NCBI GenBank assembly: GCA_026120035.1
Contig: JALRME010000009.1
Coordinates: 124,001-188,000, forward strand
Source of the DNA: Coleophoma eucalyptorum
Taxonomy: Eukaryota > Ascomycota > Leotiomycetes > Helotiales > Dermateaceae
DNA: 64,000 bases
Direction of reading: 5' to 3'
Part shown: positions 29,011 to 43,035 of the stretch, piece by piece
Layout of the letters: the number at the start of each line of letters is the position of its first letter
How positions within the stretch are numbered: position 1 is the stretch's first letter
Notes under the pieces: generated by a model
Seen by the model: only the letters and a program-made list of their open reading frames with translations
What the model was told of the DNA's origin: nothing
Databases searched by the model: none
Program-made: the position numbers and the translations under genes

Positions 29011-31494
29011 TCAGATCCTCTCGAGATCCTGATACCGCCTGCTAACCGCGGCTCTCATCACACCTCTAGGTGCTTTCCGTCCTGTCATCAATTCAAATTG
29101 TGCAATGCCCTGTTCAGGAACCATTTCAAGACCATCAACCGGAATCCAGGCTTTACGTGTCTCGGCACGCAAGCGACGAACTTGTTGAAGCAAAGGAGTG
29201 TTCAATGGCTTGTAGGCCATATCAAGTAGCACTCCACCAGTAGAGCTCGAAAGCCATTGCAGTGGAAGTTCATAATCGCTGCTTGGTCGGCCATCTATGC
29301 TGTGCGCCGGGACACAGGATATAATCATGGTAGGGTGATGATATCCGGCAGGCCACTCATCCTGCTTTGATTCTAAGACCTCCACCTTCTGATCAGGACG
29401 TTGTTGTTCCGATAGCCAGGTATTGAAATGATCTGCAACTTGCTGAGCATGGGCTGCAGTTCTATTGTGAATCAAGACACGGCGGCATCTAAGTTGAAGT
29501 AATGTGTAGACTGCGGACCGAGCCATACCCCCAGCTCCAAGGACAAGTCCTGTTGTTTTAGATGGTTGAATCACATTGCGTGGAGACAGGTTCCGCTGAA
29601 TGCAAGTTGTCATGCCGATCCAGTCAGTATTGTCGCCATACCATCCTATGACAGGCCCTACTCGTCCTCTATGAGACAATTGATCACCAAGTGTATCTCT
29701 CTGTCCATCTGGGGATGCCCGTAGCGGAATGAGGGTATTGACAGCACCAATGGCTTTTGCACGAGAGCTCATCTGAGCTAAGTTATGATATACAGAGACC
29801 TTGAAGGGATGGCTGATACTGCAACCACCAAAATGAGGATCTCGCGAAGCCGCCTGAAGGTCACTGAGGGCAGAAGTTTCTCTAATTTCATAGTCGAAAT
29901 TTAGACCACATGTCTGATATGCACCATTGTGCATGTATGCTGCCAAACTGTGTGAAATCCCGTCGCCAAATAGGTAGAAATGTAAGGGCTGTAAAACAGA
30001 ACGCCGATAAAGCTCTTGCATTATTTCTCTCGAAGTCATTGCAGGGTCGCCTACGTTACTAGAGGTAGCTTGCGATCGACGGACTGGAGTCAGAACCCCA
30101 TTGGTTAACAACGATTCCAAGCCACCCTGGCCGCTATTATATGCGATCAATGGTAAATGGAGACCTGGCAAAGCCTTGACTCTATTTCGGAAATCTGCAA
30201 CGTCATCATTGTCAGAAGAAGACATTGCTGGTTGAGAGATGCGGACCATATCACAGCCCAACTGCTCTGCCGCTTGGTATTTTGCATATCTCGATCGACT
30301 TGTCCAGGCTCCAGATGTTGGTGCAAGCTCCACGTAGTTTCCAATTATCTTGGTAGGCCCCTTAGCTTCGACCAGTGCAGATATCCGAGGATCTTCGTCA
30401 TCTATATTCACGACCAGAAAGTCAACAGCAAGACGAAGTCCCAACAAAGATAAGCTAAAAATAGAGTTTCTGTCCTGAATGTTCCTTTCGACGGAAAAAA
30501 TAATAGGAACCCCAACAAGGCGCCTGATAGAGGCAATATGTTTACTGATCAATGGCAAAGAATTCTCCGTCATGCTATCAACTTTGTACTCGATAGCGTC
30601 CTCGCTAGATTCGAGGTCTCGAATGTTGACCTCGTTCTTCACAATTTCCGAAAAACGTACAATAACGGCATGTGTGTACTCTCTCTGTTCAACTGGGAGA
30701 GCAGTAATGGAAATATGCTGCAGAAGACTATTCGGAGGGCTTACGGGTCCTGCGATTGATCGAACAAAAGCCCCGAAGTCTTCCTTTGCAGCCTTGAGCT
30801 TGAACGGGAAGTATTGTAATTGTCCGTCCAAGGCACCGTCCTCTCGATATGTTTCGCAGTTGGGATCGTAGAGATTATAATATTCAAAGTTGGAACATAA
30901 TCTATGGGCAAGATCTCCCTGTTCCATCAGTCGAGCCTGGGCATCATCTAGTCTCAATAACTGCTGAATCCTATTCATGCCTCGGCGCACATGTATGACT
31001 GGGTTGGTTTGGGAAAACTCCTTTAGATATGTCTGGGCACCAGTTGCAAGGGAGCCAAGTCCGCACTCAATCACACATCGCGTGCGATGCCGCTCCAACA
31101 TCAGCCCGACAACCTCAACATCCATTCTCCGGAAAGCTTCGTTGCCATGTTGCTTTAGATAAAGTGCTCTTGAAATACCTGTTATCGTCTCAAAGTAATG
31201 ATCTTCTGTGATGAAGCGCCAACCTAATGCTGTAGCAGCAATAAACCCCAGCGAACGCTTCCCGCTTCCCCGAAGACCGATCAGAACAATGGATGCGTCT
31301 GGAGCGAAAAGTTTTCTGGATCGCGCAGGTCCTGCAACTGGGCTTGTAAGGAGAAGCCTTGGGTTCGAATCCAAGCTCGGGCCCGTATGTATAGGTGCAG
31401 TCCCTCCGTTCTGGTTGGCGTCTGGTGAGCGCACGGCAGAGCTCGTCTCACTGATCGCGGTGGCCATACAAGGCAGAAAATAAGGGGGCGACAA
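29011..31494 (-). CDS. qutR: Quinate repressor-like protein QutR (AROM C-terminal homologue)
   Basis: A single exon of 827 aa. It has the three-domain order of fungal quinate repressors, which derive from the last three domains of the AROM enzyme. A shikimate-kinase-like domain is at about 68-245 (P-loop GLRGSGKRS at 73-81), a type-I dehydroquinase-like domain at about 260-480, and a shikimate-dehydrogenase-like domain at about 505-820. In the known system QutR/Qa-1S binds the activator and blocks quinate-gene expression until quinate or shikimate is present. Here the kinase P-loop has Arg where Ser/Thr binds Mg. The dehydroquinase His and Schiff-base Lys positions look replaced (NYVEL at about 386, MVRIS at about 416). 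The dehydrogenase-like domain keeps ISHS, SHPFK, GAVNT and GDNTDW. It is divergent from the QutA-like activator. The start could also be the Met at codon 10. Confidence 0.88.
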   Translation of the reverse strand: MSPPYFLPCMATAISETSSAVRSPDANQNGGTAPIHTGPSLDSNPRLLLTSPVAGPARSRKLFAPDASIVLIGLRGSGKRSLGFIAATALGWRFITEDHYFETITGISRALYLKQHGNEAFRRMDVEVVGLMLERHRTRCVIECGLGSLATGAQTYLKEFSQTNPVIHVRRGMNRIQQLLRLDDAQARLMEQGDLAHRLCSNFEYYNLYDPNCETYREDGALDGQLQYFPFKLKAAKEDFGAFVRSIAGPVSPPNSLLQHISITALPVEQREYTHAVIVRFSEIVKNEVNIRDLESSEDAIEYKVDSMTENSLPLISKHIASIRRLVGVPIIFSVERNIQDRNSIFSLSLLGLRLAVDFLVVNIDDEDPRISALVEAKGPTKIIGNYVELAPTSGAWTSRSRYAKYQAAEQLGCDMVRISQPAMSSSDNDDVADFRNRVKALPGLHLPLIAYNSGQGGLESLLTNGVLTPVRRSQATSSNVGDPAMTSREIMQELYRRSVLQPLHFYLFGDGISHSLAAYMHNGAYQTCGLNFDYEIRETSALSDLQAASRDPHFGGCSISHPFKVSVYHNLAQMSSRAKAIGAVNTLIPLRASPDGQRDTLGDQLSHRGRVGPVIGWYGDNTDWIGMTTCIQRNLSPRNVIQPSKTTGLVLGAGGMARSAVYTLLQLRCRRVLIHNRTAAHAQQVADHFNTWLSEQQRPDQKVEVLESKQDEWPAGYHHPTMIISCVPAHSIDGRPSSDYELPLQWLSSSTGGVLLDMAYKPLNTPLLQQVRRLRAETRKAWIPVDGLEMVPEQGIAQFELMTGRKAPRGVMRAAVSRRYQDLERI

Positions 31495-32277
31495 ACGTTG
31501 GTCGTAGTGGTTCGTACAGTCGGAAATTACCGCGGATATATCGACGATATAATGGTCCTTGCTAGAGCTTCTTGTAGATCAACCCGAGGTTGTCACGTTG
31601 GCGACAGGAGGATGGAGGGCGTTAGGCAGAGTGCTCGCAAATACATGGTCGCGTTAGATCATTGCAAGAGTTGTTCTCTCGGTAATTGGGTCGTGTCGGA
31701 TAGTCGGAGTATGCTCTGCTCGAGGTAGGTGTATCATAGGGGGGCTCAAGGAGTAGATGAGGGGGAAGAAGGAGTGTGAGGAGGAAGGGAGGGGAGCACA
31801 GGAATAATTGTTTGCTTTCATGTAGTTACACGAGCATGCATCAGCTACCCGGGTAAACTCTCCTCCGTTAAAGCAAATTCCAGCGCAAGTGCGAGTCCAC
31901 TTCTTCGCTGCGCTTCCAACCAGATCCAGTCACCCCCATCTCAATTCATGGACTCGAGCTAGACTCCAATCTCCATCCCCCAGACGTTGTTCTTCGCTGG
32001 CAACTAGCAATAATCAACAACGACGCCTCTGAAGTGTGGGGAAGGACTGCCATTCGTTTGGTATCATGGCTCTGAATAGTATCACTTATCTCCTTGCACA
32101 TCTCGATAATCCTTCGCTACCAGGTATCATCTCTCTGCTTTATTCTCTTTGCTGGTGAATCATACGAGCCACACCGTCTTCCTCGCCCCCAACCATCACA
32201 TTCTGTGCCCCCTCGATGCGCTTTTGTTGGACAACGAACGACGCCCGGCGCAGTCTCAGCGCATCGTCCAAACGGCC
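31495..32277. promoter_or_regulatory. Divergent promoter region of the qutR/qutA-like pair
   Basis: 783 bp lies between the two divergent start codons. The reading frame of the activator extends upstream to 32149, but only through a non-ATG codon, so I treat that part as 5' UTR. I looked for the activator's inverted-repeat site (GGATAA-N4-TTATCC type) and found no full match. Confidence 0.55.
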
Positions 32278-34796
32278 ATGAGTAACTCTCATTCAGCTGA
32301 GGCGACAGACAATCCTGTCCCAGACGCTCAATCAACCAGCTCCAAGAGAAAACGACAGACACCTGCACAACTTGCGGCCCGGGTCGCACGAGCTTGCGAT
32401 CGATGTCGGGGTAGGAAGTATAAGTGCGATGGCGGGCATCCATGCTCGTCCTGCTCCGTCAATGGGCAGAGTTGTACATATGATCCCATATTGCGGAGGC
32501 GTGGTTTGCCGGAGGGGTATGTTCGAGGTCTGGAAAGAATGCTCGGTCTGGCGATATCGAGGGATAAAAGCTTCGAAGATTTGGTTCTATCCATTGCAGA
32601 AAAGGGACAAGACGAGGACTTTGTAATAGATTTCCCCGCTCAAGGATGGGACGCAGGAAAGACGGAAGAGAAATTACACGAGTCCTGGAAGAACAGTGCT
32701 ATATCGAACAAGGTTGAAGCTCTCATCCCAGTATTGGAGTCTATGGAGGCCAAAGGATTCAAGCGACGTAGGGTCGACACACCCCCTCCTCTCCACTCTG
32801 TGCAACACCTTGAGCAAGACCAACGCCCCAATGGCTATTCTGAATATAACGCTCAAATGCCTCTAACGAATCCGTCCCCGCAACGTCACTATGGACTTCC
32901 GGCACCTGACTTCGCATTGCCCTATCAACAAACAACAGATCCTCAGATGCTGCAGGACTTTGCCTTCCGTGCTGCTGTGCCTAGACATTTGCCTGAACGG
33001 GCCGGAAGACTTTTGGATTCATATTTTACTTATACACATTGCTGGCTACCATTTATTGAACGCCATGATATCCTCAGGCTCTCTTACCGCTACCCTGATA
33101 TCTCTGGTGATCTCGCTCCCGGCTCACCTGGGACTGGAGAAGCCGCAGCTTTGTGGGCCTTACTGGCTTACGCTGACCATCCGACGATTGATTCGTCAAA
33201 TGTGGCAGGCAATGAATTCACGACAGAACGGCTTTACCTTGCTGCAAAGGCTCTAATACCCCCTGAGAGGTCGCTGTTTGAGCTTGGTCATGTTCAAGCG
33301 CTGCTAATTATGGTGTTGTACCACATGCGATATGCTTCTCTGAATGCTGCCTGGTTTCAGGTTGGCCAGGCAATTCGTATTGCCATCACTCTTGGCCTAG
33401 ACAAACCATCACAACCATTAGAGTTTAGCGACCAGCCCCGCAAGGTTGGAGGCCGTGATACTCATGTTTTCCTTGCATGCTTCACCCTCGATACTCTCCT
33501 TGCAGGCCGCCTAAACCGACTACCTCATCTGAGAAGAGACTCTTTACTACATCTAGGACCACTCTTTGAAGATGGCCCGGAGGAGTGGGAGCCTTGGATT
33601 GACCCACAAACTATAGCGCAGTCGTCCCTCCACTTTCGAAATCCGTCCTTTACTACCAGCACATTCAACCGTCTAATCGAAGTTCTTGTCGTACTGAACG
33701 AGGTCATATGCAACACATCATTGGGACTTGAGTGGGAGAAGCAGCATGCTGCACTCCGTGCTCGGCTGACTGACACTGCTACCAGATTTCGAAACCGGGC
33801 ACAGCGGCAGTCCAATCAGACGTTGCCTCATCATGCTGTATTACATTTACTTCATATGTCTACATTGGCTTACATGCGACTTCATACATTATCACACTCC
33901 CAGAACAAGAGATCCGCGCTTGGAGTCAGCCCAATGTCTTCTCAGCTAACCTCACAATTGCAGCAGTGCCTGGATGTTTTTGGACCGGTCCAGCATCCTC
34001 CCCTTCTTGGATTTTCTGCCTTATTGGCATTGAAAGAGGATGAGGCGTTCGCTTCGGGTTCGTCGATGGCAAACGATACTCTGTGGAAGGAACAGTTATT
34101 AGACATTGCTATAAAGCTTGAGGTCAGAAATAACGGCTTTCGCGAGATTCAGAATGCTATTGCGCTCTCAAAGTTCTCAGCTCTAGCCCATACAGATCCC
34201 CTGGTTACACAACCAGTAGTACCAAAAAAGTCTTTTGTGGAAAATGAGCCAACACATTTCTGGAGCACTCCAACTCATGAAAGCCCGCAGTATACGAATA
34301 CCAGACCTGAGTCGATACCGACTCCAAATCTACGAAGGGCTTCATCATCACAATTTGATGTTGGAAGATTTGACGGCTCTGGCTCGAATATCTCCGTAGT
34401 CTCACCGGCAAAATCGTCAAAGCATATGACAGGAGGTGAATTCGGAGATATTGGGCCATTCGAAACGGTCACGGCAATCATTGCTGAGACACCACCGGCA
34501 CTAAGTGCAGAAGTTGATACGAAGAGCAGCCATGCCAAAGAAAATTCTACGGGAGGCCCCGCAATTCCCCCAGAACCACAAGCTGAAGATGGCGATGCAG
34601 CTTTTTTGAGTTTAGCCCATTTGGATACCACACAATGGTATGCCTCTTTTTCCTGCTATCTGACGGACATTCAACTTACGATTATAGGTCTTCAAATTGG
34701 GAAGATGGGCTGGTTGAACTTGGATTTGCTAATGACTCTGTGTTCCGAGAATTCTGTAATGATCCTGATCGCCTTCTTAGCGATGAAGGCAAGTGA
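32278..34796 (+). CDS. qutA: Quinate activator-like Zn2Cys6 transcription factor QutA
   Basis: Two exons, 32278-34637 and 34688-34796, giving 822 aa, close to the length I recall for QutA/Qa-1F. The zinc cluster is at about residues 40-67 (CDRCRGRKYKC, CSSC, GQSC), preceded by a basic KRKR. The linker ILRRRGLPEGYVRGLERML resembles the distinctive 'KKRGLPTGYIRTLE' linker of quinate activators. The fungal-specific TF domain follows (YFTYTHCWLPFIERHDILRL, LYHMRYASLNAAWFQVGQAI). Without the 50-nt intron the C-terminus runs into unrelated sequence; spliced, it ends in SNWEDGLVELGF...DEGK. It activates quinate/shikimate catabolic genes in known systems. The adjacent divergent QutR-like gene strongly supports the call. 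No target enzyme genes are in the window. Confidence 0.82.
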
Positions 34797-35516
34797 GGTA
34801 GGCATTTTATGGAGTTCAAGCGAATGGGGTTTTCATATACACGATTTAGCGTCAGTACACTCTAGACTAAAGTCAGGAGGATTTAATTGTTACGAAGATC
34901 ATCTACACGTTCATATGCAGGAAGGATCACTAGCATGAATGAATCAGATAGTGCGGACAATAGACTGCACAGTAAAAGTAGAAGCCGAGAAGAGTCCCGC
35001 AACCAACTACCCCGCCTTGGTTTGCAAGACAATACTCCGCACACCACGTCTTTTTTTAGCCGTGCGAGACTCGGACCGTCCTCTAATACGTTGGGTCGAT
35101 GTTTGCGCTCTCAATCCTTTTCGCATTGTACCATTGGTGATGGACCCTGGATCGAGTCTCAGACCATAATCTACATCTTGCCATTTTCGCATGTAGAATG
35201 GAAGAAGAAGTGCGGAATTCAGTGGATATTGCGGACTTGGTCGCCAGCAGGTCCCCCGGGACTGATGCTCCCCACCTTTTAGCTTACCCAGTCCTGCGTG
35301 TCCACTTCGCTCCTCCCCACATTGCAGGGATACTGTGAGACGAGGATATGGATTGTCCCGCATCACCGAGGGGTAACTTTGTGACTTTTAATCAACGCAT
35401 CGCCTTCACTTTCAGTTCCAAACATGCGCCAAGCAGTGCAGTACTCTTTCTCATAGTCTTACAATCAAGCAATACAGACCAAATTGGTGTTCAAAGCATC
35501 TCAAACCTGATTCACA
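34797..35516. other. Intergenic stretch
   Basis: This is 720 bp between the activator and the DUF3500 gene, both on the plus strand. Overlapping short ORFs on both strands have no family features. It should hold the DUF3500 promoter. Confidence 0.4.
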
Positions 35517-36855
35517 ATGGGGTCAACATCGACTTCTTCCGCCGAATTCAAAAAGGCCTCAGCAGAGTTTCGGACACACCTCCCCGATCTTTCCTCACCA
35601 CGCTTCACCACTGCTAAAACCCAGGACGCGACCAGCTATGCGAAGTTCTTCAATGACAACAAGGCACCTCCGTGGTTACATGCTCTCACTCAGGCATGGG
35701 GGAAGCTCTTCAATGAGCCCTACAAAGGAGTAACAAGTGATGGTAAGCAGTTGCCAAAATTCGTATCTCTCGTTTTAACATGTAAAAGGCAATGTGATAC
35801 CTGGGCTTTATAAGATACAAGACGAAGGTGTCCCAATCGAAAAGATTACAGCCGCGGTCGAGAACGTGCTCTCAAAACTCGATCAGACACAAAAGGACAA
35901 GGTCCAATATCCAATCAACGCAAAGGAGTGGCGGGCATGGTCCAATCCAGAGATGCTACTGAGAAATTTTGGGATACGGCTGGAAGATATGCCAGAAGAT
36001 ATCACTCTTGCGGTTCTCGATGTCCTCAAGACCGCCTTCTCACCTGAAGGATATGAGAAAGCCATTGCTGCGATGGAGATCAATCACTTCCTTGGGGAAA
36101 TCTGCGAAATTCCTAAAATCATGAACCGATATTCATACAACTTTCTCCTCTTTGGCACACCTTCGACGACCAAATCGTGGGGGTTTAGTGTATACGGACA
36201 CCATCTCTGTCTGAACGTCTTCTTGAAAGGACCTCAGATTATCATTTCCCCTACATTTACAGGTGCTGAACCAAATATCATAGACGATGGCCCAAAGATG
36301 GGGACGTCAATCCTGCACCACGAGGGAGACCTTGGACTGAAGTTAATGCAGAGCCTTCCGAAAGAATCCCAGAAGAAGGCCGTGGTTTTTGAGAAGATGC
36401 ACGACCCAGGGATGAAACAGACTGGAGATCTCACTGTTGACCGTTGGAACAAGGACGATCAACGACACCTTTGCGGTGCATTCCGTGACAACCGGATTGT
36501 ACCATACGAAGGTGTTCTTGTATCTGATATGACGCCAGAGCAGAAGAAGCTCATTTCTGATATTGCTGAGCAATTTCTTCTCTATCACCCTACTCAAGCA
36601 CGACAGAAGCGCATTGCAACAATCGAATCTCATTTCGACCAAACATACTTTAGTTGGATAGGAGGCTATGGGGATGAAGATGCATTCTACTTTCGAGTCC
36701 AAAGCCCGGTCATCATCCTTGAGTTTGATCACCATTCAGGCGTTTTCCTGACAAACACTGAGCCTGCGAAATTCCATACACATACAATTGTCAGGATGCC
36801 TAATGCAGGAGATTATGGCAATGCGTTGCGGGAGGAGGATGAGAAGGTGTTGTAA
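35517..36855 (+). CDS. DUF3500 domain-containing protein
   Basis: Two exons, 35517-35742 and 35789-36855, giving 430 aa; the 46-nt intron has a GTAAGC donor and an AAAAG acceptor. The body matches the DUF3500 pattern as I know it: NRYSYNFLLFGTPSTTKSWGF, GHHLCLNVF, TFTGAEPNII, an EE/DQ-rich middle, YFSWIGGYGDEDAFYFRVQS, IILEFDHHSG, and the C-terminal FHTHTIVRMPNAGDYG. The histidine-rich motifs (GHHL, DHHSG, HTHT) suggest metal binding, but no activity is established. No signal peptide is seen. It follows the quinate-regulator pair by chance or in some unknown functional link. Confidence 0.87.
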
Positions 36856-40975: not shown

Positions 40976-43035
40976 TTAGAAGGCGGCGGCAGGTGTAGGT
41001 CTTGGGAAGCGAGCCTACGTTAAAGTAAGTATTTCAAATAGGCATTGTATCAGAGATCAGAGACTTACTTTAATGCTTCCGGTAGCACCGGCAACACCAG
41101 ACTGAAAGTAGACGTTAATTATCCGATCTATCAATCTCTTTGTATTGCATATAAACTTACGGCCTTAGTAGAGGACTTTGCTGCGGCACGAGCCTACGTG
41201 AAAGTAAGTATTTCAAATAGGTATTTTATCAGAGATCAGAGACTTACCTTAACGGTTCCGGTAGCACCAGCGACACCAGACTAATAGAACATGTCAATGA
41301 TCCGAGCTAGTAATTTTTCAGTACCATGTAAACTCACGGCGTTGGTGGTCTTTGCAGCGGCACGAGCCTGTATTGAAATAAGTATTTCTAACTGGCATTA
41401 TATCAGGGATCGAGGACTTACTTTAATGCTTCCAGTAGCACCGGCAACACCAGACTGAAAGAACACGTCAATTAACCGAGCTATTAGTCTTTTTGTATTC
41501 TATATAAACTTACGGCCTTGGAAGAGGACTTTGCTGCGGCACGAGCCTGTTTCAAAGTAAGTACGTCTACTAAGTAGCACATCAGAGATTAGAGACTTAC
41601 CTTAACGGTTCCGGTAGCGCCGGCAACACCAGACTAAAAGAATATGTCAATGATCCGAGCTATTAATCCTTTTGTATGCCATGTAAACTTACGACCTTGG
41701 AGGTGGTCTTTGTAGCGGCACGAGCCTATGTCAAAGTAAGTACGTCTACTAAGTAGTACATCGGAGATCAAAGACTTACTTTAATGCTTCCGGTAGCACC
41801 AGCGACACCAGACTGAAAGAACACATTAATTATCCGAGTTATTGATCTTCTTGTATTGCATGTAAACTTACGGCCTTGGAGGAGGACTTTGCTGCGGCAC
41901 GAGCCTACGTGAAAGTAAGTATTTCAAATAGGTATTTTATCAGAGATCAGAGACTTACCTTAACGGTTCCGGTAGCACCAGCGACACCAGACTAATAGAA
42001 CATGTCAATGATCCGAGCTAGTAATTTTTCAGTACCATGTAAACTCACGGCGTTGGTGGTCTTTGTAGCGGCACGAGCCTGTATTGAAATAAGTATTTCT
42101 AACTGGTATTATGTCAGAGATCAAAGACTTACTTTAATGCTTCCAGTAGCACCAGCGACACCAGACTGAAAGAACACGTCAATTATCCGAGCGATTGATC
42201 TTTTGTATTGCATGTAAACTTACGGCCTTGGACGAGGACTTTGCGGCGGCACGAGCCTGTTTCAAAGTAAGTACGTCTAATAAGTAGTACATCAGAGATC
42301 AAAGACTCACTTTAACGGTTCCAGTAGCACCGGCAACACCAGACTGAAAGAACATGTTAATTATCCGAGCTATTGATCTTTTTATATTTCATATGAACTT
42401 ACGACCTTGGAGGTGGTCTTTGCTGCGGCACGAGCCTAGATCAAATTAGCTTTTGACAAGTAGTATACTCGATAGTAAACGACTTACTGCCTTGCTTGCA
42501 CCAGCGGCCTTCAATTTAATGTCAGAATCCATTGAATTATATGAACTACAATACTCCAGTGACTTACGGAAGGAGTAGCCTTGGCTGCGGTCTTTTGCAG
42601 AGCGATGTTAGTAAGAGAAAGTGAGCATAGGAAACTTTGGAAATCATTAACATACAGTTCCAGCCTTAGTTGCTGATGCTCCTGTAGCACGTGCTACGAG
42701 AGCAGACTGCATAAAAGTTAATGGCTATTAAGTAACTCCTTCGGGTTGTGGACATACGCCAGCTTTAGAACCCTAGAAGAAGTTAGGAAACGGTCTCTAA
42801 TGAACAAATAGCACTGCGCAAGACTTACAGATGCCTTGGCGAATCCTACACCAGCCAATCCAGCAGGGTATCTTCTCTGATTTTGCTCATGGTTGTAATC
42901 GCGAGGATAGGCATGGACGTCTCGTGCGTTGACATCGCTGGTGATCAAGTCGCTTGAAGGGACTGGGTTGGAGTGTACAGAGGCAAGGGCAGAAAGGAGA
43001 AGGACGAGAGAAGTGGTTGGGGCGGTGAAATGCAT
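40976..43035 (-). CDS. Micro-exon gene: secreted Ala/Gly/Lys-rich repeat protein (22 exons)
   Basis: Minus-strand exons in order: 42829-43035, 42758-42772, 42656-42706, 42568-42591, 42488-42508, 42403-42435, 42311-42343, 42224-42256, 42133-42165, 42049-42078, 41959-41991, 41872-41904, 41780-41812, 41693-41725, 41601-41633, 41514-41546, 41422-41454, 41338-41367, 41248-41280, 41161-41193, 41069-41101, 40976-41014. Every exon is divisible by 3 and all 21 introns (51-64 nt) are phase 0, giving 292 aa. Residues 1-22 are a signal peptide (MHFTAPTTSLVLLLSALASV...). A pro-region ends in a dibasic QRR (54-55), a possible Kex2 site. Residues 107-280 are eight pairs of an ARAAAK/ARAATK-type 10-11-mer and an SGVAGATG(SI/TV)K 11-mer, each residue block on its own exon. 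The tail is ARFPRPTPAAAF. The product would be secreted and strongly basic. No known domain; function unknown. Confidence 0.85.
41069..42490 (-). repeat. Tandem array of eight ~178-bp exon-intron-exon-intron units
   Basis: The unit is micro-exon, intron, micro-exon, intron. Starts of the SGVAGATG-type exons are 41069, 41248, 41422, 41601, 41780, 41959, 42133 and 42311, that is spacings of 179, 174, 179, 179, 179, 174 and 178. Exon sequences alternate (GSIK/GTVK and SS-K/TT-), showing a dimer period. The 30-nt variant exons recur 711 bp apart (41338, 42049), showing a tetramer period. Introns are as conserved as exons, so whole genomic units were duplicated. Confidence 0.9.

Follow-up and report, generated by a model that had tools for sequence, protein, structure and literature searches.

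A tandem micro-exon array in Coleophoma eucalyptorum as a candidate gene for a secreted repeat-peptide precursor

The locus at 43035-40976 on the minus strand of the analyzed window (the whole stretch of 64,000 nt from the genome of Coleophoma eucalyptorum) is, judging from its sequence, a real, intron-dense and unusual protein-coding gene. A secreted basic repeat precursor appears to be its most likely role, the odds of a cut and an uncut product being not very different. The reading that we tentatively place first is a tandem-duplicated gene for a Kex2-type secreted peptide precursor, with mainly constitutive splicing.

Gene structure and coding evidence

Reading and splicing of the minus strand gave 22 exons separated by 21 phase-0 GT-AG introns. 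Their positions, and the symmetry of every exon (all lengths are divisible by three), agreed to the base with a preliminary description of this DNA, which had presented the locus as a fungal gene of symmetric micro-exons encoding a repeat protein; the spliced model supports this, the signal-like start being judged by eye. The exon lengths are 207, 15, 51, 24 and 21 nt, followed by fourteen exons of 33 nt and two of 30 nt, and a last exon of 39 nt including TAA. The spliced coding sequence comprises 879 nt and encodes 292 aa; 19 of the 22 exons are no longer than 36 nt and make up 582 nt (66%) of it. Introns of the whole gene are 51–64 nt long. The splice sites, described earlier as canonical, are so at the donors (16 GTAAGT, 3 GTGAGT and 2 GTATGT) and at 19 of the 21 acceptors (YAG), but not in introns 3 and 4, which end in AAG. 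Since a stop in the incoming frame is present in 20 of the 21 introns, reading through the array offers no alternative. The features of the gene model are as follows.

42829..43035, minus strand: exon 1, 207 nt; signal-like stretch (by eye), pro-region with NAR, YPR and QRR, and start of the part free of D and E; cleavage sites putative
42758..42772, minus strand: exon 2, 15 nt, GSKAG
42656..42706, minus strand: exon 3, 51 nt, SALVARATGASATKAGT, with LVAR inside
42568..42591, minus strand: exon 4, 24 nt, TAAKATPS, AAG acceptor
42488..42508, minus strand: exon 5, 21 nt, AAGASKA, AAG acceptor
41069..42435, minus strand: exons 6–21, eight A and eight B exons alternating in 8 units of 174–179 bp (gene model and tandem repeat search)
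within 41069..42435, minus strand: A exons, ARAAAK.. or ARAATK.., 30 or 33 nt
within 41069..42435, minus strand: B exons, SGVAGATG[TV/SI]K, 33 nt
41069..42435, minus strand: introns between exons 6–21, 54–59 nt, phase 0
40976..41014, minus strand: exon 22, 39 nt, ARFPRPTPAAAF and TAA

The window was also searched on both strands for chains of introns, using six donor forms, HAG acceptors, a YTNAY branch-like motif, symmetric open exons of 12–60 nt and introns of 44–75 nt. One run of 21 introns was found, at the array; elsewhere on the two strands, no chain reached three introns. As none of that length appeared either when the minus strand was shuffled 20 times by dinucleotides, a chance origin of the intron chain was rejected. 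The last acceptor of the chain is at 41001 and that of the gene model at 41015, because the search accepts any acceptor. Duplication passed the same symmetry on to all 16 repeat exons, which therefore do not count as 16 independent coincidences.

Variation among the copies was compared by codon position. In the eight B exons, 7 of 33 columns are variable, five of them third positions and two among the 22 first and second positions, and pN/pS is 0.20. For the A exons, the six of 33 nt were used out of eight, leaving out the two of 30 nt; they vary at 8 of 33 columns (4, 1 and 3 by codon position), with pN/pS of 0.56. In the eight introns after B exons, 24 of 45 core columns are variable and the donor changes little; the difference from the first and second positions of B exons (2/22) corresponds to Fisher p = 0.0004, a value that is descriptive only, the copies being related. 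Figures for the A-introns were based on the five introns of 59 nt (5/8). The B exons thus give a clear coding signal and the A exons a weak one.

The spliced protein had no homolog at E ≤ 0.001 in the protein database among the 8000 candidates scored (those sharing most words with it), and exon 1 gave no match, with four candidates found. Both searches covered proteins of 0.55–1.75 times the query length, and a relative annotated at about 121–160 aa would be missed by both. No known Pfam domain was detected in the product at E 0.01, and no relative of solved structure for the 125 residues searched (best E 0.51). In the genome (45.3 Mb, 101 contigs), the array matched itself alone with the protein searched to E 10, and a paralogous family was rejected. 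For the neighboring ORF at 35794-36855 (DUF3500), the closest protein is from Coleophoma cylindrospora (93% identity), followed among named matches by one from Phlyctema vagabunda (74%); Coleophoma belongs to the Helotiales (Leotiomycetes). The annotated proteins of C. cylindrospora were included in the searched database, yet the spliced protein and exon 1 remained unmatched; in that species the gene may be absent, unannotated, or annotated at a length outside the searched range. The earlier suggestion that gene callers miss homologs is thus possible, given an annotated relative with this neighbor identity and no match, although absence of the gene from the relative would look identical. According to the Pfam domain search, a shikimate-kinase/dehydroquinase/shikimate-dehydrogenase protein, a Zn2Cys6 factor and the DUF3500 gene lie side by side at 29011-36855 of the window; these genes presumably resemble a quinate-type regulator pair.

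Predicted product and its processing

The protein starts with the hydrophobic stretch LVLLLSALASVHS, signal-like as judged by eye alone. It is followed by the pro-region NPVPSSDLITSDVNARDVHAYPRDYNHEQNQRR, which contains five D/E and four R and ends in RR. The 237 residues after QRR contain no D/E and 38 K/R, with a computed pI of 12. QRR, located before the repeats, is the one dibasic site in the whole protein, and a KR/RR Kex2 site between repeats is absent throughout the array. All eight B-exon ends join AR as [V/I]K|AR, with an aliphatic P4, Ala at P2 and Arg at P1, and the candidate Kex2 site spans the splice junction (VK|AR). The expanded aliphatic-x-x-R motif is present between repeats at 8/8 of these ends with Ala at P2, cutting being predicted only. 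Nine of the 11 Arg residues in exons 2–22 stand at [V/I/L]-x-A-R (eight [V/I]KAR and the LVAR of exon 3), the two others belonging to KAAR, where exons 5 and 6 meet, and to the FPR of exon 22; Lys, unlike Arg, is found throughout. The amino acid differences among B exons (T/S, V/I) leave P4 aliphatic.

According to PMC8528282, a review of fungal Kex2 processing, Kex2 acts with Arg at P1, a preferred but variable Lys at P2 and an aliphatic P4, a pattern used as LxxR; Ala is outside the six P2 residues ranked highest there. On the preferred reading, the short introns would be removed one at a time, yielding mainly one full-length mRNA, and the product would be secreted, losing its short pro-region at QRR. 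The Golgi protease Kex2 would then cut the strongly basic, D/E-free repeat part at [V/I]KAR, within the expanded motif, to release 21–22-residue peptides of the alternating types AAAKSS[S/T]KASGVAGATGSIKAR and AA[A/T]KTT..SGVAGATGTVKAR. Cutting at these sites would give a first piece of 50 residues and then seven such peptides, two kinds alternating; the KAAR of exon 6 has no aliphatic P4, and the first repeat unit would therefore stay attached to the preceding region. The hydrophobic moments of two peptides tested were 0.17 and 0.19, not strongly amphipathic, which gives no indication of a classical membrane-active helix.

The Kex2-type precursor is favored by the aliphatic P4 at nine of the 11 Arg, which fits the motif given in PMC8528282, by the retention of this P4 despite the T/S and V/I differences, and by the absence of D/E next to 38 K/R after QRR. 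The gene model, the 21-intron chain, the pN/pS of B and A exons, the conserved donors in more variable introns and the duplicated units point in the same direction, as does a second array in the same genome with KR in most micro-exons and a UstYa gene near by (see below). Against it stand Ala at P2, whereas Kex2 prefers Lys, the KAAR of exon 6, and the weak coding signal of A exons, where third positions account for 3/8 of the variable columns. In addition, the 64-kb window contains no match to UstYa (PF11807/DUF3328); among the matches found in the genome, the only one on the contig (C101) is at 764351, 597 kb away. Membership in a dikaritin RiPP cluster was rejected for this gene, no UstYa match being close to it.

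A somewhat less probable, though still plausible, explanation is that the same constitutively spliced gene encodes a secreted repeat protein that stays uncut. Here the pro-region alone would be removed, and the mature 237-residue basic A/G/K/S/T protein would act whole, for example on the cell wall or other polyanions. The single dibasic site before the repeats, the very even composition with its extreme charge and the lack of a UstYa match near by are all consistent with this, but the placement of 9/11 Arg at [V/I/L]xAR, in a protein with Lys all along its length, argues for cutting, and the structure search revealed no relative hinting at a role of the whole protein.

Growth of the array and the question of exon skipping

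Tandem Repeats Finder placed the array at 41022-42437 with periods of 179 and 353. The unit is about 178 bp long, repeats of higher order measure about 355 and 711 bp, and two unit types, TT..TVK and SS..SIK, alternate. Pairwise identity among the eight A+B units ranges from 77 to 99%; units four positions apart share 88% (U1/U5), 91% (U2/U6), 99% (U3/U7) and 84% (U4/U8). U1 is equally similar to U4 and U5 (88% each), the closest unit to U4 is U1 (88%), and U8 is nearest to U6 (85%), slightly above U4, so that U4 and U8 are not mutual best matches. The simplest account would be that a four-unit block doubled and that units later exchanged sequence locally, units 3 and 7 most of all. The array looks to have grown by tandem duplication of a two-exon unit (exon-intron pairs), and its micro-exons may serve mainly as a frame-safe unit of duplication, by which changes of copy number at the DNA level would preserve the reading frame.

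The preliminary description had proposed that exon skipping generates a combinatorial set of peptides. This proposal found no support, and splicing diversity, which is unproven, is not favored as an explanation. The eight B exons encode two near-identical peptides and the eight A exons six similar ones; as the repeat exons are near-duplicates, skipping would mostly alter length or repeat number. Fungal introns of 50–60 nt are generally spliced by intron definition, under which a whole intron is more readily removed or retained than an exon is skipped.

Two classes of introns alternate at 41015-42402 and differ in their branch-like motif, each kept in 8/8 copies: A-introns have ATTRAY 12 nt before the intron end, and B-introns have TACTTAY near the end. 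In 7/8 B-introns, CTGAY occurs only far upstream, 34 nt from the end and close to the donor. If the motif of B-introns is weaker, the A exons could be the skipped ones. Regulated skipping yielding many secreted isoforms, as in schistosome micro-exon genes (MEGs), nevertheless seems unlikely. The symmetry of all exons, by which any skip stays in frame, the 66% of the coding sequence in exons of up to 36 nt and the difference between intron classes are in its favor, but near-identical exon peptides would provide little variety, and both intron classes look used, as each keeps its motif. It is very improbable that the locus is a relic or non-coding tandem array, untranslated as modelled, for although neither homolog nor paralog was found and the A-exon signal is weak, the B-exon pN/pS is well below 1, the frame is intact across 22 exons and the splice sites are conserved.

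A second array and comparison with known systems

The genome was searched for the pattern GTAAGT, a 26–40-nt exon and GTRAGT, which gave 122 matches versus 227 for the reversed control. Among 100 of the 122 matches, extending up to contig C79 and including none from the window's contig C101, runs of adjacent matches occurred on C3, C24 and C43 only. The run on C3 is a microsatellite and that on C24 is antisense to an apparently ordinary coding stretch, and both were rejected. On C43, direct reading identified a second micro-exon array:

G000:C43:165002-166000 (L009:4003-5000): signal-like first exon and symmetric phase-1 exons

The exons after the first are 36, 42, 54, 39 and 39 nt, then, beyond 97 N, 39 and 42 nt, all symmetric and in phase 1; a shorter acceptor choice is possible for the 54-nt exon. 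KKR precedes SFDG or NFDG in 6/7 micro-exons, the first having TRGFDG. A UstYa match above the family cut-off lies at C43:161533-161706, 3.3 kb from the array, and the adjoining ORF L009:722-1168, which matches UstYa below the cut-off, probably belongs to the same UstYa gene as an earlier exon. The C43 gene itself probably encodes a dikaritin-type precursor in which each repeat has a micro-exon of its own. No further copy of this array was found in the genome. The chain search applied to it returned five introns, with one exon chosen differently from the direct reading; since it went no further than the N run, this search understates gapped arrays. Both genes have a signal-like start and tandem symmetric micro-exons and appear to encode secreted repeat precursors; the C43 array differs from the window gene in phase (1 versus 0), in having KR in most repeats and UstYa near by, and in its unrelated sequence. 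A second, unrelated array in one genome means that the micro-exon architecture recurs. The broader proposition, that such arrays for secreted repeat-peptide precursors arose more than once independently in filamentous fungi and that splicing of the window gene sets which peptides are released via VK|AR, is considered improbable; on this view, with the Kex2 site written across the junction, skipping of either exon kind would remove a cut.

Among known systems, KEPs (Ustilago maydis Rep1, dikaritin and epichloecyclin precursors) share with the window gene a signal-like start, a pro-region and tandem repeats with a possible Kex2 motif per repeat. The product appears to be a secreted protein with tandem repeats, secretion being judged by eye only. 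KEPs use KR/RR, whereas the window gene has [V/I]KAR, spreads each 21–22-residue repeat over two micro-exons and has no UstYa match near by; it would work like a KEP, but the definition by dibasic sites keeps it out of that class. In the KEP literature, the words "intron" and "exon" occur 0 and 0 times in PMC6339444, PMC7329392, PMC7099791 and PMC12048977, and 1 and 0 times in both PMC9769878 (a cDNA remark) and PMC9233826 (where it concerns how intron-dense basidiomycetes are).

Schistosome MEGs are similar in the very small symmetric exons that form most of the coding sequence, up to 75% of it according to the review PMC4015677, and a signal-like start, in the window gene judged by eye, may be a further likeness. 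In the window gene, by contrast, 16 exons are tandem near-copies. MEGs are seemingly confined to platyhelminths (PMC4350168), whereas the host here is a fungus and the protein search gave no homolog from any lineage at E ≤ 0.001 among its 8000 scored candidates. SP7-like effectors of arbuscular mycorrhizal fungi are comparable in description, combining a signal peptide with imperfect hydrophilic repeats; they are reported to have one conserved intron, located ahead of the first repeat (PMC11333574). Xlr2 of Trichoderma also contains a micro-exon in a filamentous ascomycete, but only one, of 20 nt, and the gene encodes a transcription factor; PMC11121469 states that functional microexons were undescribed in filamentous fungi before this case and that experimental tests of fungal microexons had been limited to Schizosaccharomyces pombe. 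Neither a fungal micro-exon array nor a RiPP/KEP precursor with an intron per repeat was found described in open-licence PMC literature. The earlier remark that no fungal counterpart is described agrees with this outcome, but a second, unrelated array, that of C43, lies in the same genome.

Because secretome surveys in fungi begin with predicted proteins, they could systematically miss secreted repeat precursors written in 15–54-nt exons. With two unrelated arrays in one genome, one of them close to UstYa, a portion of the RiPP/KEP repertoire of fungi may be hidden in this manner. The array in the window also provides a compact natural test of fungal splicing of 33-nt exons between 54–59-nt introns, and of exon-intron pairs as the duplication unit for peptide copy number.

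The profile search detected at least 47 exon-level UstYa matches on many contigs, perhaps reflecting a large set of RiPP clusters. The surroundings of 30 of the 47 matches (about 1.5 kb on each side) and four wider stretches were scanned (L009–L044, 148,678 bases with overlaps counted twice), and no chain of four or more introns beyond that of C43 was found there. At L042:3128-3282 (G000:C7), in a locus with several UstYa matches, a 54-nt KR repeat lies beside an N run and is intron-free between copies, which indicates that the architecture of one micro-exon per repeat is not universal.
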